A stretch of DNA of 39,855 bases from Thermoplasmata archaeon. Lineage in GTDB: Archaea; Thermoplasmatota; Thermoplasmata; Lutacidiplasmatales; UBA184. Of the stretch, positions 17,360 through 30,921 are shown piece by piece. The stretch covers positions 1 to 39,855 of the forward strand of contig JAJZYH010000016.1 of NCBI GenBank assembly GCA_021798195.1, read 5' to 3'. The first letter of the stretch is position 1. Each line of letters opens with the position of its first letter. The notes beneath the pieces are model-generated. The model worked only from the letters and a program-made list of their open reading frames with translations. It did not search any database and had not been told where the DNA came from. Both the position numbers and the translations under genes were made by a program.

Positions 17360-17905
17360 CTACGGCTCCACGCCCCGGTGGCGGCACTCCTCTTCCACGG
17401 CGTGCCGGAGGTACCGCAGTGCCGGCTCGGCGATCTGGTCCAGATGGAGCAGGAGGTACGAAAGGTAGACACGCTCCTCGCGGGCCCGGCGGTGCCGGGA
17501 AGAAGGGGTATGGGGACGGGGCCCGTCGTCGGGGAAGGATGTGGGAGCGCCCTCTCCGCTCCGGCCGGTGGGAGAGCTCCCCGGTGGGGATGACCCGTGA
17601 TCATCGGAAGGGGACGCGTGCGCCGCCAGGAAATCCTCGAGGGGGATCGAGGGAAGGCCCACCTCCGGCTCCGGCGGGGGCGAGCTTCCGGAGAGTGGGG
17701 AGGGAGGTGGTGCGGCGCCCGGGCGGGGACCCCATACATCCCGAAGGTCCAGCCGGTGCTGGGCGGCCACCTCCTCGGCGATCTTCCGGACCGACCACGG
17801 GTTCCTCCTCCGGGGGGCGGCTTCGGAGCCCCCCATGGCCATATCCCCTTCCGGTGCCATCCCCTGCCTCCTGGTCCCGGCATGTCTTCGGGGAAGGTCG
17901 TACAT
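17360..17905 (-). CDS. Uncharacterised last gene of the secretion-like operon
   Basis: This 181-residue soluble protein is of no family I recognise. A basic N-terminal region is followed by a helix (NPWSVRKIAEEVAAQHRLDLRDVWG, residues about 35-60, shaped like a helical DNA- or protein-binding segment). Then comes a low-complexity linker of about 80 residues rich in Pro, Ser and Gly, and a C-terminal helical segment (VYLSYLLLHLDQIAEPALRYLRHAVEEE). The two ordered ends with a long disordered bridge suggest a tether or adaptor. ATG at 17905 lies 49 bases after the preceding gene. Another ATG at 17860 is possible. Its place suggests an accessory role, but it could be an independent gene. Confidence 0.55.
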   Translation of the reverse strand: MYDLPRRHAGTRRQGMAPEGDMAMGGSEAAPRRRNPWSVRKIAEEVAAQHRLDLRDVWGPRPGAAPPPSPLSGSSPPPEPEVGLPSIPLEDFLAAHASPSDDHGSSPPGSSPTGRSGEGAPTSFPDDGPRPHTPSSRHRRAREERVYLSYLLLHLDQIAEPALRYLRHAVEEECRHRGVEP

Positions 17906-17954
17906 AAACCGGGGGTTCCAGAGGAATCCCGGACCTTTCCCCCGCGGTTCCCGG

Positions 17955-18491
17955 TCACCCCGGGGCCGGAGGAGGTCCCCGCCCCGCTTCCTCCTCCCCG
18001 GGAGAGGAGGTCTCCAGGCGGGTACCCACGGAGACCAGGGGGAGCCCCAGCGGGTCCTCGAGGTCCCCCAGCCGGATCACCTCGTCGATGAGGATCCGGG
18101 TCCTCAGGGTCACCGGATCCCCGCCGGGGGAGTGCAGGCGGTACTCGTTGAAATCGTCGCGGACCAGGGAGAAGGGGAGGGGATGCCGGACGGCGGTGTC
18201 CAGCGCGTGGGACTCCGGCGGGACGTAGTCGGACCGGGGCAGGCGCACGCGGCGCGGGCCCGAGCGGGCCGGGTGGATGGCCACCACGGTCTGGGCCACG
18301 GGGACCACGGTCTCCACGTCGGGCGATCCATCCCCCTCCCCGGGAGGGGTGGGGACCTTCAAGAGATAGAGAAGGATGGAACGGACGCGCATCTCCAGGG
18401 AGAGGTCCGTTCCCAGCGCGTACAGGCTCCAGCTCTCCCGGACGATCTCGAAGGGAAGGTCTTCACCGTGGCTGGGAACGCTGGTCGCCAT
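17955..18491 (-). CDS. Uncharacterised protein coupled to the VirB4-like ATPase gene
   Basis: This 178-residue protein lacks a signal peptide or membrane helix. It has several predicted strands (RSILLYLLKV, TVVPVAQTVVAIHP, RTRILIDEVIRLG) and a C-terminal acidic, Pro-rich tail. I do not recognise the family. ATG at 18491 is preceded by GGGAG and lies 29 bases inside the end of the ATPase gene, so translation is likely coupled. This argues that it works with the ATPase. It could be a cytosolic adaptor or the functional counterpart of an accessory component not found by similarity. Confidence 0.65.
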   Translation of the reverse strand: MATSVPSHGEDLPFEIVRESWSLYALGTDLSLEMRVRSILLYLLKVPTPPGEGDGSPDVETVVPVAQTVVAIHPARSGPRRVRLPRSDYVPPESHALDTAVRHPLPFSLVRDDFNEYRLHSPGGDPVTLRTRILIDEVIRLGDLEDPLGLPLVSVGTRLETSSPGEEEAGRGPPPAPG

Positions 18492-20229
18492 GGGGCTCCC
18501 GGACCCGTGCCTCCCTCTTGAGTTCTCGGTGCGTCGTCCCGGGGGGCCCCGTCTCGCTCCGGAATGCCTCGGAAAGGAGCTCGTGCTCCGCATCGGAGCT
18601 CACCACGGCGAGGGGGAAGTGCCGATCCCCCGCGCGGAGGATCCCGCCCGCGTAGCCGGCTTCCGCCGGGAGGGGGGCCTTCCGCAGGAAGTCCCTCTCC
18701 CCGGGGGAGAGCCCCAGGAGGGGGGCGAGGCGCTCCCCTCCATCCCGCAGCCGCAGGAGGAGGCAGGATTCGAGGTTGAGGAGGACGGAGCGCCCCCAGT
18801 GGGACCCGAGGAAGTCCTCCGGGTTCTGGGTGAGGAGCTCCAGGCCCGCCCGGTGGTGTCGTACGTGGCGGACCAGGTGATCCAGGAAGGCGGCGGTGGA
18901 GGGGTCCCGGGCCAGGTAATGGGCCTCGTCGAGGACCACCAGCTTGGGCCCTTCCCGGCGGCGCAGTTCGCCGGCCACGAGGTCCAGGAGGAAGACCATG
19001 TGGAAGGGAAGGAGCTCCGCGGGGACGCCCCGGAGATCGAACCCCACCATCCGGGCCTCGAGGTCCAGGGTGGTGTCCGTGTCCAGGTGGGCGAGGGAGC
19101 CGCGCACCAGGGGCTCCAGGAGGGTGGGGAGCCGGGGCGGGGTCCGGGGATCGGCGCCGAGGGCAGCGAGGAGCTCGCCGAGCCGGGGGGCCCGGTCCTT
19201 CTCCCGTGCGTAGAGCGAACTCACCACCACGTCGAGGATCGCCCGCTCCTCATCGTGGAGCGACGGGAACAGGGCCCGGAGCATGACGCCCACCCGGGAG
19301 GCCTTGGCCGAGCGGTCTCCCCCGCAGGTCCGGGGGTCCAGCGGGTTCACTGCGAGGCCCCGTCGGGCCAGGGGGACCACCTCTCCCCCCAGCCGGCGCA
19401 CCACTTCCGAGAGGCCCCCCAGCGGATCCAGGATGAACAAGCTCAGGTCCGGAACAAAGAGGGACGACCGGAGCCACCCCAGGGCGCTGGCATAGGACTT
19501 TCCGCTGCCGGTCATCCCGAAGATCGCCGAAGAATGGCTGGGTCTCGCGAACCGGTCCCACACGAGGGGGGTTCCCTGGATCGCGTGCACCCCCACGAGG
19601 AGGCCCCCGGGGTCCTGGAGGTGATCCTCCCAGAGAGGGAGGAAGGGGGCCGCGCTGGAATCGGTGAGGAGGTGCCAGGGCAGGTCCATGGTGGGGGTCC
19701 CCGGACGCCACGCGCGCAGCAGGGGAAGGGCCCGGTACGCCACGGAGAGGGGCCGATACCCTGCGGGAGTTCGTCTCTCCGCCTGCTCCCGGGCCCTCTC
19801 TTCCGTCACCGTGGGGGACCCGCCGGTGGTGGAGATCCCGGGAAGGACCTCCCAGAGGCCGGTGTTCCGTCCCACGAGTTCCTCTTCGAGCCGTCGGAGA
19901 CCCTCGGCCTCCTGGCCCAGCTGGGCTCCCCGGGGATCCGCGGGGGACCCGAGAGCCCCCCGCTCCGCCTCCACGTGGGCCCGCTCCTCCCGGACCCGGC
20001 GCAGGGACTCCGGGCCGGAGAGGGGACGGAGGCGGACCAGAGGATAGACCCCCGGCTCCGCCGGTCCGGGGGGCGGCCACGCCGGCACATCCGCTTCCCG
20101 CGGGAGGTGCCGGAAGGGGAGCGGGGTCCACCAGCGCCCGGCGATCCACACGCACCGGGGCCGTTCCCGGGAAGCGATCCCGGGACACGAGGTCTCCCCC
20201 AACGGTCTCCTTGGGCGCATCGAAGGCAT
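18463..20229 (-). CDS. VirB4/TraC-type conjugation-like ATPase (CedB/HerA-like alternative)
   Basis: This is a 588-residue ATPase. The N-terminal 170 residues resemble the VirB4 N-domain (long amphipathic helix ESLRRVREERAHVEAERG, then GLWEV strand). The C-terminal motor has Walker A GMTGSGKS (238-245), a LFILDPLG strand, AVNPLDP (a VirB4-like NPFD motif, 293-299), Walker B KLVVLDEAH (429-437) and TQNPEDF (467-473), the sensor-type TQ motif. It is the cytosolic motor that would drive pilus assembly or DNA transfer. VirB4 is favoured over HerA because of the N-domain, the NP motif and the neighbours. In archaeal DNA-import systems the equivalent ATPase is CedB. Its ATG overlaps the upstream stop as TGATG, and its end overlaps the next gene by 29 bases. 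Confidence 0.88.
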   Translation of the reverse strand: MPSMRPRRPLGETSCPGIASRERPRCVWIAGRWWTPLPFRHLPREADVPAWPPPGPAEPGVYPLVRLRPLSGPESLRRVREERAHVEAERGALGSPADPRGAQLGQEAEGLRRLEEELVGRNTGLWEVLPGISTTGGSPTVTEERAREQAERRTPAGYRPLSVAYRALPLLRAWRPGTPTMDLPWHLLTDSSAAPFLPLWEDHLQDPGGLLVGVHAIQGTPLVWDRFARPSHSSAIFGMTGSGKSYASALGWLRSSLFVPDLSLFILDPLGGLSEVVRRLGGEVVPLARRGLAVNPLDPRTCGGDRSAKASRVGVMLRALFPSLHDEERAILDVVVSSLYAREKDRAPRLGELLAALGADPRTPPRLPTLLEPLVRGSLAHLDTDTTLDLEARMVGFDLRGVPAELLPFHMVFLLDLVAGELRRREGPKLVVLDEAHYLARDPSTAAFLDHLVRHVRHHRAGLELLTQNPEDFLGSHWGRSVLLNLESCLLLRLRDGGERLAPLLGLSPGERDFLRKAPLPAEAGYAGGILRAGDRHFPLAVVSSDAEHELLSEAFRSETGPPGTTHRELKREARVREPHGDQRSQPR

Positions 20230-20597
20230 CACCCGCCGCGGGAGAGGTCCTTCCGGAGCATCCCGTAGGGGACGATCCCGCCCAGCCCCACGAGGAAGGA
20301 GGTCCGGATCACGGGGCTCCAGGAGACGAGGACAAGGTCCAGGAGGACCCCGGCCCCGAGGGAGACCAGAGAAAGGGTGAGGGAAGTTCTCGCCCATCCC
20401 CCTGCCTTGACGATGGAATGGTCCTCCGGGCGCGCGAGGGCGAGGGCCCACCACAGCAAGGCGAGGCCCAGGGGATAGGGAAGGAGGGAGGGAACCCCTA
20501 CCCAGTCCTCCAAGAGGCCGATTCCCAGGAGGGCCACGAGATATTCCGGCCAAGGGCCCCTGGAAAGCGGCCCCGACCCCCGTCCCTCTCCCCGCAC
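20229..20597 (-). CDS. Small polytopic membrane protein in the secretion-like operon
   Basis: This 122-residue protein has about four hydrophobic segments (EYLVALLGIGLLEDWVG; YPLGLALLWWALALA; TLSLVSLGAGVLLDLVLV; SFLVGLGGIVPYGML) and a basic C-terminus. It starts at GTG 20597. No family is recognised. It sits directly before the ATPase gene with a one-base TGATG overlap, a sign of coupled translation and joint function. Small membrane subunits of this kind, such as CedA2, occur in archaeal DNA-import systems, but I see no diagnostic motif linking it to any of them. Confidence 0.7.
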   Translation of the reverse strand: MRGEGRGSGPLSRGPWPEYLVALLGIGLLEDWVGVPSLLPYPLGLALLWWALALARPEDHSIVKAGGWARTSLTLSLVSLGAGVLLDLVLVSWSPVIRTSFLVGLGGIVPYGMLRKDLSRGG

Positions 20598-20636
20598 GGT
20601 ATCCCCTCCCCCAATCCTTGCCGGCGTCGTCCCCGG

Positions 20637-21347
20637 TCAGGGCGGGAGCCAGGGGAGGAGAGGCACGGAGGCCCCTCGTTCTGCCGGCCACCAACCCCGG
20701 GCGGAGAGCGCCGACCCCGATCCTTGTTCGCCGCGGGAGGGAGGTTCCCGGGGCACCCAGGCGAGGAGGATCCGTCCACCGCGGGACTGGAGCGCCACCT
20801 CCTGGAGAAGCCCACCATACCCGGCGCAGAGGGCGGGATGAGGGCAGGCATGCCTCCCCCGATGCCCGGCGGGCATCCCCGCGAGCTCCTTCCACGGACG
20901 CGGGACACGAAGGAGGAGGATGTCGGACGCCACCGGGCGCAGGGCGCAGAGGAGTGCTTCCCCCTCGGCCAACCGCTCCTCCGGAAGACGCCCGTAGAGG
21001 GGGAAGGGGTCCTTCATCCAGATCTCCAGGGTGGAGGCGGAGTCTACGGAGCTCCCTCCGGGGGCATGGAGGTGGGATCGATCCCACCGGCTCCGGAGCC
21101 CGCGTCGGGCATAGCCCAGGCGGAATGCGAGGTGGGTCCAGAGGCTCTCCCCTTCGACGCGGCAGAGTACCATCGACGTGCCGGCGCCCACCCAAAGAAG
21201 GGTCGGAAGCACGCCCAGGAAGGCTGCGAGGAGCGTCCCCGTGGAGACCACGAGGAGGAACCGGAGGATGTCCCGGGGATGCTCGAAGGGGCCCAGCGAC
21301 ACGCGTCGACCGGGCGGTTCGGGGATCGGGACCCGGAAGGATGCCAT
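20637..21347 (-). CDS. PrgI/VirB3-like membrane protein with extra C-terminal domain
   Basis: This is a 236-residue protein. Residues 1-80 follow the PrgI-family pattern: an N-terminal VP-containing strand (FRVPIPEPP), a LGPF segment, two close hydrophobic helices (about 28-58) and then an F..GY..RG turn leading to the cytosol. PrgI-like and VirB3-like proteins partner with VirB4 in type IV secretion systems, and here the VirB4 gene is two genes away. The remaining 150 residues are a soluble domain with several strands, two Cys-His rich stretches (GRHACPHPALCAG) and a Trp-rich end. This domain is not part of standard PrgI. ATG at 21347 has GGAG 7 bases upstream. The start is 13 bases from the VirB6-like stop. 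Confidence 0.6.
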   Translation of the reverse strand: MASFRVPIPEPPGRRVSLGPFEHPRDILRFLLVVSTGTLLAAFLGVLPTLLWVGAGTSMVLCRVEGESLWTHLAFRLGYARRGLRSRWDRSHLHAPGGSSVDSASTLEIWMKDPFPLYGRLPEERLAEGEALLCALRPVASDILLLRVPRPWKELAGMPAGHRGRHACPHPALCAGYGGLLQEVALQSRGGRILLAWVPREPPSRGEQGSGSALSARGWWPAERGASVPLLPWLPP

Positions 21348-21359
21348 GGAGGTGCTCCA

Positions 21360-22526
21360 TCAACCCGACGGTGTGGAGGGTCTTTCCCCGCCGATCCGGA
21401 GGCTCCGGGGGAGCGGGCGGGGGAGGCGGGTTCCCTCCCCCGCACCGGGACCGAAGCCGGTGGTGGGAGAGCGGGCCCGGGCCGCGAGGTGGGAGGCAAG
21501 ACGGCCCAGCCCCTCCCCCATCTTTCCGGCCAGATACCCTCCGGGTCCTGCGGCGTGGAGAGGAGTGCCCACCGCACCGCCGCGGGGGCGGGGGGATGTA
21601 ACCCCCTCACGGATCCCCCGGCTGGCCGACCGTCCCCATTCCCCCACGGACCGCCGTACCCCCCGGCTCCCCGTGGAGAGATCCCCGGACACCACGCCGC
21701 CCACGTGGGGGAACCCCAGGCCCCCGAAGGACGCCCCCGCCTGGGAGAGGAGCTGGGGCATCCCTGCGGCGAGGCCCAGGAGCGCGAGGACCAGGAGCAC
21801 GTTCCCGGCGCCCACGGCCAGGGCGAGGGGGACCACCATGAGGCAGGGGAGGAAGATCATCTCGCCGAAGAGCTTCCAGGCCTTCCGGGCGAACCCCGCG
21901 AGGGAGGGGATGGGCCAGAGGAGCGTGAGGGGCGGAAGGAGCACGAGGAGCGTGGCCACGAGGGCGTCCCGCAGCTCCACCACGAGGGCGAGGAGGAAGA
22001 TCACCATGAACATGGCCAGGGCCACGAGGAAGGTGAGGACGCCGTTGTCCCAGGAGAACGCGAGACCCCCCGCCGGAACAAGGTTCCCGTAGGCGCGCCA
22101 GGCGCCGCCCCCGTAGTCGTAGAAGAGGGGGTAGACGGCGGAAGCGAGGTCCCAGAGGAACGTGGCCAGGGGCACCACGGCGTTGGCCACGAGGATCCCC
22201 AGGACGAACCGGGGAGCGAGCTCCTTCCAGGCCGCGAACCGGGCGGGGAGGCTCGCCCGGAGCAGGTAGAGGATCCCCAGGACCAGGATCACCAGGACCG
22301 CGAGGGGGTCCACCACGTTGGCCACGAGGTACACGCTGAAGGCGGCGGCCCGGGCCATGAGATCCCCCGAGGTGGAGGAGATCGTGAGAGGGGGGAAGAG
22401 GGCGGAGGGAGCCATCTCGGGGACGAAGAGGTTGTCGTAGGTGGGCGCGATCACCCACGTGAGGGCGCCGGTCAAGGCGGCGAAGATCGCGAAGAGGACC
22501 GCCTGGACCAGTTGGGAGGTGTTCAT
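21360..22526 (-). CDS. VirB6/TrbL/CedA-like polytopic channel protein
   Basis: This is a 388-residue protein with about seven membrane helices: residues about 7-27, 62-90, 107-125, 163-183, 185-205, 220-240 and 243-258. The central block ELRDALVATLLVLLPPLTLLWPIP followed by an amphipathic linker is the conserved VirB6/TrbL core with a basic residue before a double-Pro turn, as also seen in CedA. The last 120 residues form a Gly/Arg/Ser-rich cytoplasmic tail. VirB6 homologues form the inner-membrane conduit for DNA or pilins. In Ced and Ted systems the equivalent is CedA/TedA. ATG at 22526 has AAGGAGG 11 bases upstream, and the gene is 41 bases after the pilin stop. Confidence 0.75.
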   Translation of the reverse strand: MNTSQLVQAVLFAIFAALTGALTWVIAPTYDNLFVPEMAPSALFPPLTISSTSGDLMARAAAFSVYLVANVVDPLAVLVILVLGILYLLRASLPARFAAWKELAPRFVLGILVANAVVPLATFLWDLASAVYPLFYDYGGGAWRAYGNLVPAGGLAFSWDNGVLTFLVALAMFMVIFLLALVVELRDALVATLLVLLPPLTLLWPIPSLAGFARKAWKLFGEMIFLPCLMVVPLALAVGAGNVLLVLALLGLAAGMPQLLSQAGASFGGLGFPHVGGVVSGDLSTGSRGVRRSVGEWGRSASRGIREGVTSPRPRGGAVGTPLHAAGPGGYLAGKMGEGLGRLASHLAARARSPTTGFGPGAGEGTRLPRPLPRSLRIGGERPSTPSG

Positions 22527-22567
22527 GCGACCACGGCCTCCTTGGGAGGTGTCCTTCGGCCGGGGCG

Positions 22568-23017
22568 CTAGAGCCCGGTCACCACCCAATGGGCGAGGCC
22601 CCAGGCAAGGCCGCTCACGGCCAGCACCAGGATGAGGGATCCCACGGCGGCGTCCCGGGCGCGTTCCTTGGCGGCGAGCTTCTTGGTGGCGTCATGGGAG
22701 AACCAGCTCAGGGCCACCCGGGCCCACGCGAGGGTCACCATGGCGCCGGCTCCCAGGGAGACGAGAAGGACCAACCGTCCCAGGGCCGCCGAGAGGTTCC
22801 CGGTGACGTTGGCGTCGGCCCGGAGGAGGTAGGTCGTCCCCGGGGTAGCCGCAAGGGGTCCCCTCCACGAAGAGGAGACCCGGGGAGGGCGTTCCGGGGG
22901 CGGTACCACGGCCACCGACGTACCCAGGAGGAGGAGGGCCACACCGACCCCGAGGCAGACCCATATCCAGGGAGGGGGGTGGAGGGGGCCCGACCCGGGT
23001 CCGTGGACGAGGGTCAT
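22568..23017 (-). CDS. VirB2/TrbC-like two-helix pilin (CedA1/TedC-like)
   Basis: This 149-residue protein starts with a hydrophobic segment (about 17-38) that may be a signal peptide or anchor, followed by a linker to about residue 72. The C-terminal half is the pilin core: a helix from LSAALGRLVLLVSLGAGAMV (about 76-103), a short positively charged loop (TKKLAAKERARDA, about 109-123) and a second helix VGSLILVLAVSGLAWGLAHWVV. Two hydrophobic helices joined by a basic loop with an ARDAAVGSL segment are the arrangement of VirB2/TrbC pilins and of the archaeal CedA1/TedC filament proteins. Its ATG overlaps the TGA of the PKD protein gene as ATGA, so the two are co-translated. Whether the N-terminus is cleaved is unknown. 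Confidence 0.7.
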   Translation of the reverse strand: MTLVHGPGSGPLHPPPWIWVCLGVGVALLLLGTSVAVVPPPERPPRVSSSWRGPLAATPGTTYLLRADANVTGNLSAALGRLVLLVSLGAGAMVTLAWARVALSWFSHDATKKLAAKERARDAAVGSLILVLAVSGLAWGLAHWVVTGL

Positions 23018-26000
23018 GCTTGGACCTCCCCGGTGGGGTCCCCCGCGGGCCGGGTCCCCGTGGGCGCCCAGCGGGGAACGCCCTCGGGATCGATCTCGCG
23101 GTGCACCAGCCCCTCCCGGGCCAGCGCATCCAGGGCGGTCCGAGCCCGCGACGGTTCGAGGCCATCGGCCTCGGCGCGCTGGAGGATCTCCTCCTCGGAC
23201 GACGAGGGGTCGTGGGCGACGAGGTCGAGGAGAAGCTCCCGGTCCCCCGGGGTGGCGAGAGGTTCGGGCGACGCTTCCGGGGGGAGGACCTTCCTCCGTC
23301 TTCGACGGAAGACGAAGAAGAGCCCCAGCGCGCCCACCGCCGCGGCTCCCAGGAGAGCGATCACCGGGTCGGAAGCACCGGTGCCGCCACCCTGGGGGAG
23401 GTCGGCCGAGGTCGTGGCTCCTCCGGGGCCATGGAGCGTTACCGAGGTCGCGTTGGCCCCTCCCGGGATCGAGAGGATGAGGCGGCCGTCCACCACCGAG
23501 CCCGTCGCCTCTGCCCCGGTGTTGGTGATCCCCTCCACGGTGACGTTGTCCAGTGGGTTGCCGTAGACGTCGGTGGCCTGGATGGCGAGCACGAGCTGGG
23601 TCCCCTCCCGCTGGAAACCCGTGAGGCGAAGGACGGTCCGGTCCACATCGGGCTGCCAGAGGATCCGCACGGGATCCGGCGCCGACCAGGGGCCCTGGAT
23701 GGAGTAGTTGGCCCATCCGACATGCAAGGAGGTCACGGGGAACCGGGCGACGCCACCCTGGAGGGTGGACTCCAGGGGGGAGAGTGCGGCGATGGTGCTC
23801 CCCGGGAGAGGATCGAGGGTTACGTTCCCCACCGCCGATGTGTTGAGGTTGCCATAGGCATCCACGACGTCCACGGCCAGGGAGACGTTCTCTCCGGCCG
23901 AGGCAAGCTCCACGGGAACGTCCGGGACCAGTGCGAAGGGGGGACCCGGGAGCACCTCCACGGGGACCGGGAGGGTGAGGTTCTGCACCGGGCTTCCGGA
24001 AAGGGTGAGGACCTCCACGCTCACTTCGTCCATGATCAGGCCACTCGAGTTCTCCTCGAAGATCGCCGTGGCGCCGGCTCGTTCCTTGAGGCCGGGTCCC
24101 CACCACGTGACGAGGAGCCGTTCCCACGGAGAGCTCTCGTTGGCGGGGAGGGAAGCCGTGAGGCTGAGGGAGGCCCCCGCGTGGGCGACGGCGGGGTCGG
24201 GCTGGATCACGGGGGATGGGAGGGCGGAGAGGGCGACCACCGAGAGGGAGACCTGGGCGGATCGTCCCAGCGCGTCGACGGCCTCGACGCGGATGTCGTG
24301 GAGGCCAGCTCCCAGGGGCGGGAGGACCATCTCCGTGGAGCGGTTCGGCGGGACCCCCTGTGCCACTTCGGCGACCTCGCCGTCCACGATCACCTGGAGT
24401 GTGAAGGGACCCTGGTTCCCGCGGACCGTGGCCACCACCGTGGGGTCCAGGGGCGCGGGGCCCAGGTCCTGGGTGAGGTTCGCCGCCAGCGAGAGGGGGT
24501 CGGCAAGGGCCTGGACCTCGAGGGTCCGGCTCTCCTCCGCCCCGGCCCCGTCCCGGGCCGAGAGGTTCACCGTGTAATTTCCGGGCTCCGGGAACGAAAG
24601 GAGCACCGAGGCACCGGACGCGGCCACGAGCCCTCCCGACGCCCAGGAGAACGTGGCGGGCGGGCTCCCACCCACCAGGGCGGCGGAGAACGGGGTGGGG
24701 GTGTCCACGGCCACGAGGGGAGGGCCCTGGACCACCACGAGGAGGGGTGCGGGGGAGACGGAGAGCGTCCCGTTCCAGGAGGCATAGGCCCCATCGGCAT
24801 CCGTGACCTGGACGAGGATTGGCATCTCCCCCGCGGTGGGGAGCCGGAGCGGAGCGGAGAGGTTCACCACTCCCATGCCGGGGAGGCGGGCCGTGACCTG
24901 GTAGGGAGCCACTCCGCCCCCCACCTGGATGGGGGGGGTCCAGGGAACCCCCTCGTCCGCCGCGAGGACTGGAGGAGGTGGATCGATGGTGAGGGGCGGA
25001 GCCACCTCCAGGGTGAGGGAGGCGGTCCGCTGGGATCCCCGGGCGTCCTCGAGGGAGAGCTGGACCACCAGGGGACCCGCCGGTCCCGGGGAGAGGAGGA
25101 GAGACCCATTCACCGTGGACAGGGAGACCCCCGTGGAAGTGCTCCACTGGAACTGGAATGGGGAGACCCCTCCGGTGATCGCGGCCTGGATGAGGAGGGG
25201 GACCCCCGATTCCGGCTGGGAGGGGATGGCCCGGAGCGCCAGGGTCGGGGCGGGAGCCACCGGCAGGTCGAACGAGACGGTGGCGTTCGCGCCCGTGGCA
25301 TCGGATACCGTGACGGTCCCGTTGAGGACTCCCGCCGCCGCGGGGAGGAGCGATATGCTGGTCTCTCCCATCCCCACAGAGCTCTCTCCCGGGACCTGCC
25401 AGATCTCCCGCAGAGGTCCGGTGCCGCCCTCGGGATCCAACGAGAGCTCCAGCGGCACTCCCACCTCCCCCGGTAGGGGGCCGGGGAGCACGGGGGGAAG
25501 AACGAGGTCCGGAGCCACCACGATGGTGAGCGATGCTCCCACAGTGGCGCCTGCTCCGTCCACGAGGGTCGCCTCCACGGTGTACGTCCCCGGGTCCGAG
25601 TACCGGTGGGTCACCTGGGTGCCCCTCTCGGCAGCCCCATCCCCAAGGCTCCACTGGACGGCCTCCGGCGTGGAACCACCCCAGGAGATGGCATCCAGGG
25701 TGACCGGCTGACCCACGTCCACCGCGGTGCGGTCCGCGGACACGGAGAGCGTGGGAGGCTCGGCCACGGAGACGTTGAAGGGCCGGGAGGTCGCGGTGGC
25801 TCCCGCCGCATCCACCACGGAGAGAGAGACCTGGTAGGTCCCCGGCGCCAGGTAGACATGGCTCGGGTCCGCAAGGTCGCTCGAGGCCCCGTCCCCGAAA
25901 TTCCATTGATACTGGTAGGGGGGGTCCCCCAGGGTGACGAGGGAGGCGAACGGCGTCGCTCGGCCCACGTCGGACCCGGGGGCGAGCTCCGTGGCCGCCA

Positions 26001-28427: not shown

Positions 28428-28480
28428 CATGTCGGGAGGTGAAACGTGGTGGGAGAGGCACGGACCCGCGGGGCGGGAAA

Positions 28481-28486
28481 GGTTTA
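28481..28486 (+). promoter_or_regulatory. Weak TATA-like element for trpS
   Basis: The stretch AAAGGTTTAGG gives a modest AT-rich match about 60 bases before the chosen TTG start. This would give a leader of some 35 bases. It contains only a poor TATA consensus. Confidence 0.25.
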
Positions 28487-28546
28487 GGGGAGAGGGCTCC
28501 TTCGCCGCGACAATCGGTAAGGCGGCGCGGAGAGGGGGATAACAGG

Positions 28547-29701
28547 TTGGCCCGGGACGAGTTCAAGGTCACCCCGTGGGAGGTCTCGGGGAAGGTGGAC
28601 TACGACCGCCTCCGGGAGCTCTTCGGCACCAGCGACCTGGATCCCCCGCTCCTGGAACGTCTGGAACGGATCCTGGGGGAACCTCTGCCGCCGCTCCTCT
28701 CCCGGGGGATCTACTACTCGCACCGGGACCTGGGGTGGATCCTGGACGAGTACGAGAAGGGGAACCCCTTCTTCCTCTACACCGGGCGGGGTCCCTCCGG
28801 GGACGTCCACCTGGCCCACCTCATCCCCTTCGAGCTCTCGGCGTACCTCCAGAGGCGTCTCGGAGTGGAGATGTGGGTCCAGGTCACCGACGACGAGAAG
28901 TTCCTGTTCCGGTCGGACCTCTCCCTGGCCGAGACCCGCCGCCTGGGGGAGGAGAACCTCCTGGACCTTTTGGCCCCGGGGTTCGATCCCCGGAAGACCC
29001 ACATCCTCTTCGACACCGTGTCCATCCGGCACCTCTATCCCCTCGCCCTGGAGGTGGCGCGACGCATCACCTTCTCCACGGCGAAGGCGGTCTTCGGGTT
29101 CACCAACCAGAACAACATCGGCTCCATCTTCTTCACGGCGATCCAGTCGGTCCCGTGCTTCCTCCCCTCCCAGATCGCCCACCGGCCCATCCCGTGCCTC
29201 ATCCCGTGCGGGATCGACCAGGATCCCCACTTCCGGCTGACCCGGGACATCGCCGAATCCATGGGCTACCCCAAACCGGCCCTTCTGCACAACCGGTTCC
29301 TGGCGGGCCTGGGGGGCGAAGGGAAGATGAGTTCGTCGGCCAACCGCAAGGACGACGCCATCTACCTCAACGATCCCCCCGGGGAGGTGGAGCGGAAGAT
29401 CGGGAAGGCCTTCACGGGCGGCCGGGCCACTGTGGAGGAGCAACGCCGGCTGGGAGCGAACCCGGAGATCTGCTCGGTGTGGAACCTGTGGCGGAGCCGC
29501 TTCGCGCCGGACGAGGGGGAATTCCAGGAGATCACCCGCACCTGCCGCAGCGGAGAGCTCCTCTGCGGGGACTGCAAGGCGCGCATCATCCCCCGGATCC
29601 AGAGCTTCCTCGCGGAGCACCGGGAGCGGAGGGAGAAGGTCCGCGCCTGGCTCCCCTCGGCCATCGTGGGCGCGGACGAGGATCCGGCAACGCGCCCCTG
29701 A
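28547..29701 (+). CDS. trpS: Tryptophanyl-tRNA synthetase (archaeal/eukaryotic type)
   Basis: This 384-residue class I enzyme charges tRNA-Trp. The N-terminal block RDEFKVTPWEVSGKVDYDRL is the archaeal/eukaryotic TrpRS signature. SGDVHLAH (84-91) is the HIGH-type motif and KMSSS (260-264) the KMSKS loop. FGFTNQNNIG and PCGIDQDPHFRLTRD lie between them, including the residues that contact Trp and ATP. CRSGELLCGDCK near the end carries the usual C-terminal Cys/Asp elements. TTG at 28547 is chosen because AGGGGG lies 9 bases upstream and the conserved N-terminus begins there. An upstream ATG at 28439 in frame would add 36 unconserved residues. The gene is divergent from the PKD operon. Confidence 0.95.
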   Translation: MARDEFKVTPWEVSGKVDYDRLRELFGTSDLDPPLLERLERILGEPLPPLLSRGIYYSHRDLGWILDEYEKGNPFFLYTGRGPSGDVHLAHLIPFELSAYLQRRLGVEMWVQVTDDEKFLFRSDLSLAETRRLGEENLLDLLAPGFDPRKTHILFDTVSIRHLYPLALEVARRITFSTAKAVFGFTNQNNIGSIFFTAIQSVPCFLPSQIAHRPIPCLIPCGIDQDPHFRLTRDIAESMGYPKPALLHNRFLAGLGGEGKMSSSANRKDDAIYLNDPPGEVERKIGKAFTGGRATVEEQRRLGANPEICSVWNLWRSRFAPDEGEFQEITRTCRSGELLCGDCKARIIPRIQSFLAEHRERREKVRAWLPSAIVGADEDPATRP

Positions 29702-29744
29702 GGTGCGAGGGTCCCCGGGGGAAACTCCTCCCGTCCCCAAAGGT

Positions 29745-29758
29745 CCCCGGATCCGGGG
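29745..29758. terminator. Palindromic hairpin downstream of trpS
   Basis: CCCCGGATCCGGGG is a perfect 14-base palindrome 44 bases after the trpS stop. It could form a stem at the 3' end of the mRNA. No T run follows, so terminator function is uncertain. Confidence 0.25.
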
Positions 29759-29907
29759 GGGAACCGGGTCCGCGAGGTGGCTTCTTCGAGGCAACGGGGC
29801 CCGATTCCCCGGGAGGGGTCCCCTCTCCGCGAGGAACCCCGGCCATGTGGGAGGGGGGAGATCCGGGGTTCCCCGGGGTCGGGGCTCATCCCGCGGGAAC
29901 TGCGGGA

Positions 29908-30144
29908 CTATGCAGATGTGGGTCCTCTCCGCAGGGCTCCATTCGCGTCGTACCAACCGGATCCGCCGTAGCATGCCGCCGGAGTGCCTGCGGCGGTTGG
30001 GAACCACGCGACTGGATTGAGGGTCGCGGGCCCCATTCGGGGGAGCCCCGGAAGAACCGCTCCGGCCACCACGAGGGTGAGGCCCGTGAGGGTGATCGCG
30101 GGCCAGACACCGATCCCACGGGGCTCTTCGTTCCCTTGGGCCAT
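29908..30144 (-). CDS. Possible small membrane protein
   Basis: This is a 78-residue frame starting with ATG and MAQGNEEP, followed by one hydrophobic helix (VWPAITLTGLTLVVAGAVLPGL) and a Cys/Gly-rich tail ACYGGSGWYD. Third-position GC is high in the first half and lower in the second. The start has GGGAG about 11 bases upstream. It is the only frame in the 29702-30474 gap that looks like a protein. No family is recognised. Confidence 0.4.
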   Translation of the reverse strand: MAQGNEEPRGIGVWPAITLTGLTLVVAGAVLPGLPRMGPATLNPVAWFPTAAGTPAACYGGSGWYDANGALRRGPTSA

Positions 30145-30474
30145 CTCCCCGTTCGCTCCCGGGCCAGTGATGCCCTTGCCCTGAGAAGCACCCTAGCCTC
30201 GCCGAAGGAAGGTCGGGATGGGTGCTCATGCCCTGGTGGAAGGCCCCAACCCCGCCGGGGAGGCGTTTCCCCAGTGCCTCGATGGATTGAAATAGGCCGG
30301 CACGGTGCCAACCGGCGCAGATCCGAGAAGCGGTCCCCCCGCAGCTTTCTTCCCGCGAGACATCGCCGGCGCCCCCGGTTCGGAGACCCGCTGTTTCTGG
30401 GAACAAGGAGTGAGCTGGGAGACCCCTCCCGGAAACGCCAGCAAATCGGAGAGACCCGAGGAAGGACGAGTGCC
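30145..30474. other. 330-bp gap upstream of ssb without a supported gene
   Basis: No convincing frame, tRNA or CRISPR repeat is seen here. The sequence has several short inverted stretches and a lone GGATTGAAATAG near 30284. It may be a long ssb leader or contain an undetected RNA. AGCAAATC at 30439-30446, about 32 bases before the ssb ATG, could be a weak promoter element. Confidence 0.3.
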
Positions 30475-30921
30475 ATGGTGGACAAGCCGTTGACGAAGGT
30501 GAAGGACCTGACGCCGAACTCCAAGCAAGTGAACATCCTGGCCAAGGTGGTCAGCGTGGGCGAGCCCAAGGAGGTCATGGGGAAGTACGGGGACAGCCGG
30601 AAGGTGGCCGAGGCGGTGGTGGGCGACGACACCGCCGTGGTGACCCTCTCCCTGTGGAACGAACAGATCGGCTCCATCGCCAAGGACGACACGATCTTCG
30701 TGGACAACGGCTACGTGAGCCTCGTGCGGGGCCACATGCGCCTCAACGTGGGGCGGTACGGGACCATGACCAAGAGCACCGAGACGGTGGGCGATGTGAA
30801 CACCGGGCAGGACATGAGCGCCCAGGAGTTCCAGTCGGAGCGCCGGTCCTTCGGAGGCGGAGGCGGGTTCCGGCCCCGGGGGGACCGGGAAGGCGGCGGC
30901 GGCGGGTACCGCCGCTACTGA
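30475..30921 (+). CDS. ssb: Single-stranded DNA-binding protein, OB fold (archaeal RPA/SSB type)
   Basis: This is a 148-residue protein with one OB-fold domain in residues about 5-110. The strand pattern TKVKDLTPNSKQVNILAKVVSVGEP, then AVVGDDTAVVTLSLWNEQ and DNGYVSLVRGHMRLNVGRYG (quoted in parts) is the archaeal SSB signature. The tail (FGGGGGFRPRGDREGGGGGYRRY) is Gly/Arg-rich and disordered, as in crenarchaeal SSB, and likely mediates protein contacts. It binds ssDNA during replication and repair. ATG at 30475 has GAGGAAGGA just upstream. It lies 770 bases after trpS and 82 before the Trx-like/RAM gene, which has its own promoter. Confidence 0.9.
   Translation: MVDKPLTKVKDLTPNSKQVNILAKVVSVGEPKEVMGKYGDSRKVAEAVVGDDTAVVTLSLWNEQIGSIAKDDTIFVDNGYVSLVRGHMRLNVGRYGTMTKSTETVGDVNTGQDMSAQEFQSERRSFGGGGGFRPRGDREGGGGGYRRY

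Follow-up and report, generated by a model that had tools for sequence, protein, structure and literature searches.

A domesticated, relaxase-less type IV secretion operon in Thermoplasmata archaea with a probable role in contact-dependent DNA exchange

Domesticated type IV secretion system (T4SS) machines are known to exchange chromosomal DNA in crenarchaea, namely Ced and Ted (PMC9905601, PMC11868833). The survey of Guglielmini et al. found archaeal VirB4 homologues on chromosomes and plasmids, often together with a type IV coupling protein and with very few relaxases, and its single archaeal integrative conjugative element (ICE) was that of Aciduliprofundum boonei (PMC3158045). For Cuniculiplasma a T4S cluster with VirB4 (arCOG04034), arCOG05340 and arCOG05369 and a separate VirD4 (arCOG04816) was reported (PMC5155288). 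Given these two accounts, chromosomal T4SS genes in Thermoplasmata are not new. VirB3 homologues were said in a 2025 paper to be absent in archaea (PMC11868833). The operon presented here lies on contig C1 of a 1.75-Mb, 73-contig Thermoplasmata metagenome-assembled genome (MAG); the whole contig, 39855 bases, was analysed and is called the window. The operon is almost certainly a T4SS derivative, and it probably is a chromosomally domesticated, relaxase-less T4SS of the mating pair formation (MPF) FATA kind that serves contact-dependent DNA exchange between cells.

Read on the minus strand, the operon encodes in order a surface protein, a pilin, a VirB6-like protein, a PrgI/VirB3-like protein, a small protein with about four transmembrane (TM) helices (4-TM protein), VirB4 and two soluble proteins, d1 and d2 (Table 1). 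A first-pass annotation of the sequence had listed the five genes from pilin to VirB4 as consecutive on this strand, and a check of the open reading frames (ORFs) found all five with unchanged coordinates. The unit is larger than that annotation had it. From its other end at 17360 it reaches upstream to 28377, where the translation of the surface protein begins with ATG, and this gene, with its predicted cytosolic winged helix, had been missed. Start and stop codons were said to overlap at several junctions, and base by base two such overlaps were verified: the TGA of the surface protein gene (23014-23016) overlaps the ATG of the pilin gene (23015-23017), and the TGA of the 4-TM gene (20229-20231) overlaps the ATG of the VirB4 gene (20227-20229). 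The remaining junctions within the five genes are gaps of 12-41 nt. From the sequence, the genes of the surface protein and the pilin are likely to be co-transcribed.

Table 1. Features of the operon and positions in the window
Feature	Position	Strand	Basis
Surface protein, 1787 aa	23014-28377	-	PKD_4 match, conserved position, TGA/ATG overlap with the pilin gene
Core of the predicted winged helix in the surface protein's cytosolic tail	23062-23250	-	AlphaFold2 model and Foldseek
VirB2-like pilin	22568-23017	-	Family alignment, PF18895 in relatives
VirB6-like polytopic channel protein, 6-7 TM	21360-22526	-	TM profile, position, distant PF04610 matches
PrgI/VirB3-like membrane anchor	20637-21347	-	Weak PF12666 matches, homologous VirB4-fused domain
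Small polytopic protein, about 4 TM	20229-20597	-	Hydrophobic ORF kept at the equivalent position
VirB4-family ATPase	18463-20229	-	NF045971, TIGR00929, PDB 4ag5
d1, soluble protein	17955-18491	-	Seen in the window only, no Pfam family
d2, soluble accessory protein	17360-17842	-	24 loci, family alignment

Since many long ORFs are spurious in a GC-rich genome, conservation was chosen as the test of whether a gene is real. The window, from a MAG that is 95.7% complete, has a GC content of 70.6%; this high value and a single family with many genera recall Lutacidiplasmatales, which have about 69% GC (PMC9287336). The family of the source genome is given the anonymous label f1, with g1 for the genus of the window and g2-g7 for the other f1 genera. 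Iterative hidden Markov model (HMM) searches covered 6605 ORFs from 41 loci of relatives and the window. Synteny in related archaea, which the first-pass annotation had proposed as a check, was found throughout: the order pilin-VirB6-PrgI-VirB4 is the same in 25/25 intact f1 loci, that is, those whose contig spans the whole operon. The operon VirB4 is present in 33 of the 37 f1 genomes. A VirB6 homologue was found in 88/300 Thermoplasmata genomes (51/62 in f1), with families f15, f11, f19, f27 and f31 represented outside f1 and none in the searched genomes of the order-mates f2 and f3. The same gene order recurs in most of these other families. One contig scan yielded a single relative, Thermoplasmata archaeon JOPF026, and no relative was found among viral contigs with the VirB6 and VirB4 alignments. 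Among the relatives, the f19 genome G112 is a single contig of 1,564,906 bases and the f15 genome G051 has 1,486,778 bases; these lengths fit the cultured species Thermoplasma acidophilum and A. boonei, respectively, for which we take them.

The ATPase is the best identified component. VirB4 models match 29/29 aligned members, the best being NF045971 (CD1110 family) and NF045975, and the CD1110 and Mbov_0397 models, which we take to be FATA-type, outscore the F, T and CedB models. The window protein has a Walker A and a DEAH-type Walker B motif and matches the CD1110 VirB4 model NF045971 (2.6e-37) and TIGR00929 (2.9e-17), and the VirB4 profile matches the VirB4-like PDB entry 4ag5 (E=3e-38). 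An identity as HerA or FtsK was rejected, as VirB4 models score far higher; the VirB4 call made from the sequence alone was upheld. The pilin model PF18895 (T4SS_pilin) matches 12/27 members of the pilin family, with a best value of 4.8e-9, and the window's own pilin had no Pfam pilin-family match. The pilins share a layout of a hydrophobic N-terminal segment followed by two TM helices with a charged loop. The annotation's recognition of a T4SS was right.

The PrgI and VirB6 identities are more tentative, with weaker matches. PF12666 was found in 2/29 PrgI-like members (E=0.01, weak) and, with a value of 4e-4, in one homologue that is part of a VirB4 fusion, and by HMM the free PrgI-like protein and the VirB4-fused domain of a second set of T4SS loci in f1 (described below) are homologous. 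VirB3 is known to occur fused to VirB4 (PMC12102498), and a VirB4 of the f19 genome G112 carries two N-terminal TM segments. PF04610 (TrbL/VirB6) was found in 2/21 distant VirB6 members joined by the same HMM (6.6e-4, weak), and the f1 members gave no meaningful family match. The gene invariably sits between those of the pilin and PrgI, and this place and the protein's topology would suit a VirB6-type channel. Seven helices had been claimed for the window's VirB6-like protein; a hydropathy scan gives six, and seven are found in several relatives. Its AlphaFold2 model, from the window sequence only, was too poor for fold searches (predicted local confidence, pLDDT, 51; predicted template modelling score, pTM, 0.26). 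Taken together, sequence comparisons identify VirB4 firmly and VirB2 well, and would identify VirB3 and VirB6 moderately.

The 4-TM protein is fast-evolving. The PrgI-VirB4 gap holds a hydrophobic ORF of about 113-154 amino acids in nearly all f1 loci, and families f15 and f27 have one there too, but iterative HMM searches of the f1 loci found no sequence homologue, the protein being too diverged. The d2 protein, with an N-terminal W-S-x-R motif and a C-terminal helical segment, is placed directly after VirB4 in g4-g7, after d1 in the g1 window and several kb away in g2; it was not found on g3 contigs. No homologue of d1 was found at the loci of relatives. In several species a gene for an N4/N6 DNA methyltransferase (L051:7545-8381, with equivalents in g4 and g6) adjoins the d2 end of the operon on the opposite strand, and self-marking of DNA is a possible role.

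The surface protein has a signal-like N-terminus, PKD/Ig repeats (Pfam PKD_4, 7.6e-54), one C-terminal TM helix and a cytosolic tail, and is presumed to be an adhesin or mating-contact protein. It is located just 5' of the pilin across the f1 genera and also in family f15, with a shorter form of roughly 550-830 amino acids in g4-g6. A single-sequence AlphaFold2 model of the tail alone gave three helices and a beta hairpin (H-H-H-E-E) with a block pLDDT of 86-92. Foldseek placed the winged-helix DNA-binding proteins Fur, MarR/SlyA and MecI on top (probability 1.00, best E 2.3e-3). The tail is thus a predicted winged helix, a likeness at the level of fold only. The tail segment can be aligned across f1 and f15, and the f15 protein in G051 ends likewise with a TM helix and a winged-helix-like segment. 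The tail profile gave matches with E < 1e-15 at the T4SS locus in most f1 genomes searched and one elsewhere (G019:C72), and the remaining matches were far weaker. Because the strong matches are nearly confined to the T4SS locus, the surface protein appears to belong specifically to the machine and not to be a generic anchor. Weak second matches of the tail profile fall in other long ORFs of 1525 and 2064 amino acids (G000:C6:115-435 and G020:C55:40694-40975), the latter about 13 kb from a second-copy T4SS.

Across eight genomes the distances of VirB4, VirB6, PrgI and pilin track that of the housekeeping DRG GTPase, with Spearman coefficients of 0.62-0.74 and Mantel p values of 0.001-0.011. 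The ratio of nonsynonymous to synonymous substitution rates (dN/dS) was below 0.6 for every pair tested and mostly below 0.4, in agreement with purifying selection. The primary f1 copies form one clade in the VirB4 tree; within it g2, g3, g6 and g7 are each monophyletic and g4 is split. The neighbourhood of the operon is syntenic within genera. By ORF reading, one flank in the window carries TrpRS, an OB-fold single-strand-binding protein, TruA and CarAB and the other glycosyltransferases, and fibrillarin and RidA lie 5' of the operon in g4-g6. The operon has the GC content of its surroundings, 0.711 against 0.704 elsewhere in the window. The window contains no tRNA genes, and ORF reading found no integrase/tRNA boundary beside the operon, att repeats not having been specifically searched. 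The housekeeping setting, the purifying selection and the divergence in step with a housekeeping gene together argue that the operon is domesticated and not mobile, as the first-pass annotation had proposed. The divergent TrpRS gene and, after it, that of the OB-fold single-strand-binding-type protein occupy 28439-30921 (+) at the operon's upstream end.

A second T4SS is found in f1, in genera g2 and g3 (L053-L058, L060-L062), with a VirB6-like protein, a PrgI::VirB4 fusion and an adjacent VirD4/TraG-D_C-type ATPase. Its VirB4 is the sister of the domesticated copy in the tree, and these second-copy loci are apparently mobile.

No relaxase or coupling-protein gene stands beside the window operon. 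The relaxase model PF03432 matched 0/61 genomes, with one control genome positive, and TrwC (PF08751) is absent from the source genome, so that the absence of a relaxase, claimed at first for the operon, extends to the source genome by two informative models. The claim that there is no coupling protein is right about the operon itself, but other contigs of the genome encode two ATPases of TraG-D_C/TrwB type (VirD4/HerA-type), VD-A (C44:20730-22997) and VD-B (C52:22502-23767). Orthologues of VD-A (E < 1e-150) were found in 30/37 f1 genomes. By ORF reading its gene is divergent from the DRG GTPase gene and lies beside RecA-fold Rad55/KaiC-like ATPases. A VD-B-type ATPase shares a contig with the operon in six relatives, about 28-52 kb away, and VD-type ATPases adjoin the second-copy loci in g2 and g3. 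In family f31 a relative of VD-A is linked to the T4SS operon: in four operons (L119, L120, L131, L133) an ATPase gene lies directly 3' of VirB4, and within the set analysed its best blastp matches are VD-A proteins, ahead of every VirB4, a kinship based on blastp ranks. This pair of ATPases is reminiscent of CedB/CedD. A search for the competence protein ComEC (PF03772) gave no match in 37 genomes, all positive controls being bacterial.

Two further observations concern these genes. At G000:C44 (L080, 5579-10577) VD-A is followed by three RecA-fold (Rad55/KaiC-like) genes, an order common to many f1 genomes, and the cluster is possibly one for DNA handling or recombination. On a 26-kb contig of another f1 genome (G002:C4, L134), with 63% GC in the part read, a TrwC-type (MOBF) relaxase (1.9e-67) stands beside a TraG-D_C ATPase (40-408, 695-1522). 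This contig is either a bacterial-style conjugative element or a contaminant.

A working that would fit these parts can be outlined. The PKD surface protein would bind an adjacent cell and, through its winged helix in the cytosol, may report this contact or dock DNA or another protein at the membrane. Seated on the VirB6 channel, the VirB2-like pilins would form either a short pilus or a conduit. The VirB4 ring, anchored by PrgI and the 4-TM protein, would power pilus assembly and translocation, and one of the unlinked VirD4/HerA-type ATPases, VD-A or VD-B, may be the DNA-handling motor. Such a system could have arisen when a T4SS was captured by the chromosome and then put to DNA exchange. 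DNA is the probable cargo. Import is slightly favoured as the direction, since no relaxase is needed or found, ComEC is absent in the 37 genomes and Ced offers an analogy, though import specifically is still short of probable.

Several points weigh against DNA exchange. The VirB6 and PrgI assignments are based on weak profile matches. The relaxase negatives concern PF03432 and PF08751, the Mob_Pre search having given no control match and other MOB families being unsearched. VD-A is kept in 3/4 f1 genomes where VirB4 was not found and may therefore serve something else, and both VD-A and VD-B lack the TM helices that classical coupling proteins carry at the N-terminus. Non-conjugative functions have been argued for the analogous relaxase-less FATA systems of Patescibacteria (PMC12102498).

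Donor-type chromosomal conjugation, an Hfr-like export of DNA in which the unlinked VirD4-like ATPase would work with a relaxase that has escaped recognition, is a sub-case of DNA exchange, and the confidences in the two overlap. It would give VD-A and VD-B a place, as it would the VirD4-type ATPases right after VirB4 in f31 and beside the PrgI::VirB4 loci, and unknown archaeal relaxases have been suggested (PMC3158045). With neither PF03432 nor PF08751 in the source genome and VD-A persisting without a detected VirB4, it is doubtful.

The main rival holds that the domesticated T4SS delivers proteins or mediates cell-cell interaction on contact, with no DNA cargo. The missing relaxase and the giant adhesin within the operon would suit such a role, for which the Patescibacteria provide a precedent (PMC12102498), and proteobacterial relaxase-less T4SS are often protein exporters (PMC3158045). 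However, the conserved operon is without an effector-like or toxin/immunity gene, what appears to be an ICE of A. boonei has a closely related layout (PMC3158045), and Ced, the archaeal T4SS derivative of known function, moves DNA (PMC11868833). Transfer of proteins or signals is on these grounds unlikely. An attachment organelle made of pilin and surface protein, with VirB4 merely assembling it, agrees with the overlapping, likely co-transcribed genes of these two proteins, but the operon keeps PrgI and the VirB6 channel homologue under purifying selection, and a pilus-only role has no need of the second translocase-type ATPase in f31; this is quite improbable. A decaying integrated conjugative element, to which the apparent A. 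boonei ICE and the mobile-looking second-copy loci among the relatives might point, was rejected as very improbable on conservation (33/37 genomes), purifying selection, within-genus synteny, intact motifs and housekeeping flanks.

Whatever its cargo, family f1 carries the minimal machine as a stable, near-universal component, and at least five other Thermoplasmata families have relatives of it. Its PrgI/VirB3-like component would run counter to the statement on archaea in PMC11868833, and it ties a presumed surface adhesin with a predicted intracellular winged helix to a T4SS machine. As far as the papers searched show, the anatomy, the breadth and the surface-protein link are new. A bolder and less probable reading is that domesticated machines for DNA exchange, inherited in several Thermoplasmata families and present in a genome of T. 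acidophilum size, make up a third such lineage in archaea, in which the f1/f15 adhesin would signal contact directly through the membrane to its own winged helix; if so, a single protein of the f1/f15 branch would both recognise the partner and handle DNA or control genes. As relatives appear to sit in culturable Thermoplasma-type archaea, chromosomal DNA exchange and its direction should be directly testable.

The operon had first been read as a Ced/Ted-type importer, a reading borne out only in part. With Ced of Sulfolobales and Ted of Thermoproteales it does share the minimal set of a pilin, a VirB6-like and a VirB4-like protein, without relaxase and domesticated on the chromosome (PMC9905601, PMC11868833), and its anatomy is similar to that of the Ted operon, a likeness of layout alone (PMC9905601). 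The ATPase is not of CedB type: the CedB model NF041017 matched 1/29 VirB4 members, far below the cut-off, whereas FATA-like VirB4 models matched all. No CedA1 match was found among PDB chains in a profile search or in NCBIfam, where the existence of a CedA1 model is unconfirmed. Unlike Ced the operon has a PrgI/VirB3-like protein, and judged by sequence it is not Ced. Cuniculiplasma, too, is a member of the Thermoplasmata with a VirB4 cluster on the chromosome and a VirD4-family ATPase encoded apart from it; that cluster was mentioned in passing, the pilin-VirB6-PrgI-VirB4 anatomy, surface protein and distribution not being described there (PMC5155288).

The locus in G051 appears to be the A. 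boonei ICE. It has the same order of a surface protein with TM helix and winged-helix-like tail, pilin(s), VirB6, PrgI, 4-TM protein and VirB4, but is set apart by an integrase-like gene, which lies about 7 kb off the end with VirB4, by a tRNA-Arg gene nearby and, at a distance of about 39 kb, by a canonical VirD4. This locus (L059/L110) is a multi-pilin T4SS: 5' of VirB6 it has a tandem array of five to six pilin-like genes, and several of their products carry additional extracellular domains.

The VirB4 model matches would place the operon with the MPF-FATA T4SS. Its closest known counterparts are the relaxase-less (MOBless) members of that group, for example in Patescibacteria (PMC12102498), and the chromosomal archaeal VirB4 loci of PMC3158045. 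Like them it has a FATA-like VirB4, a VirB2-like pilin and, by weaker matches, PrgI/VirB3 and VirB6, no relaxase found, a chromosomal and lineage-wide occurrence and a second VirB4-related ATPase that is not always linked. It differs from them in being archaeal and in having a giant PKD protein with a predicted cytosolic winged helix, the 4-TM protein and d2.

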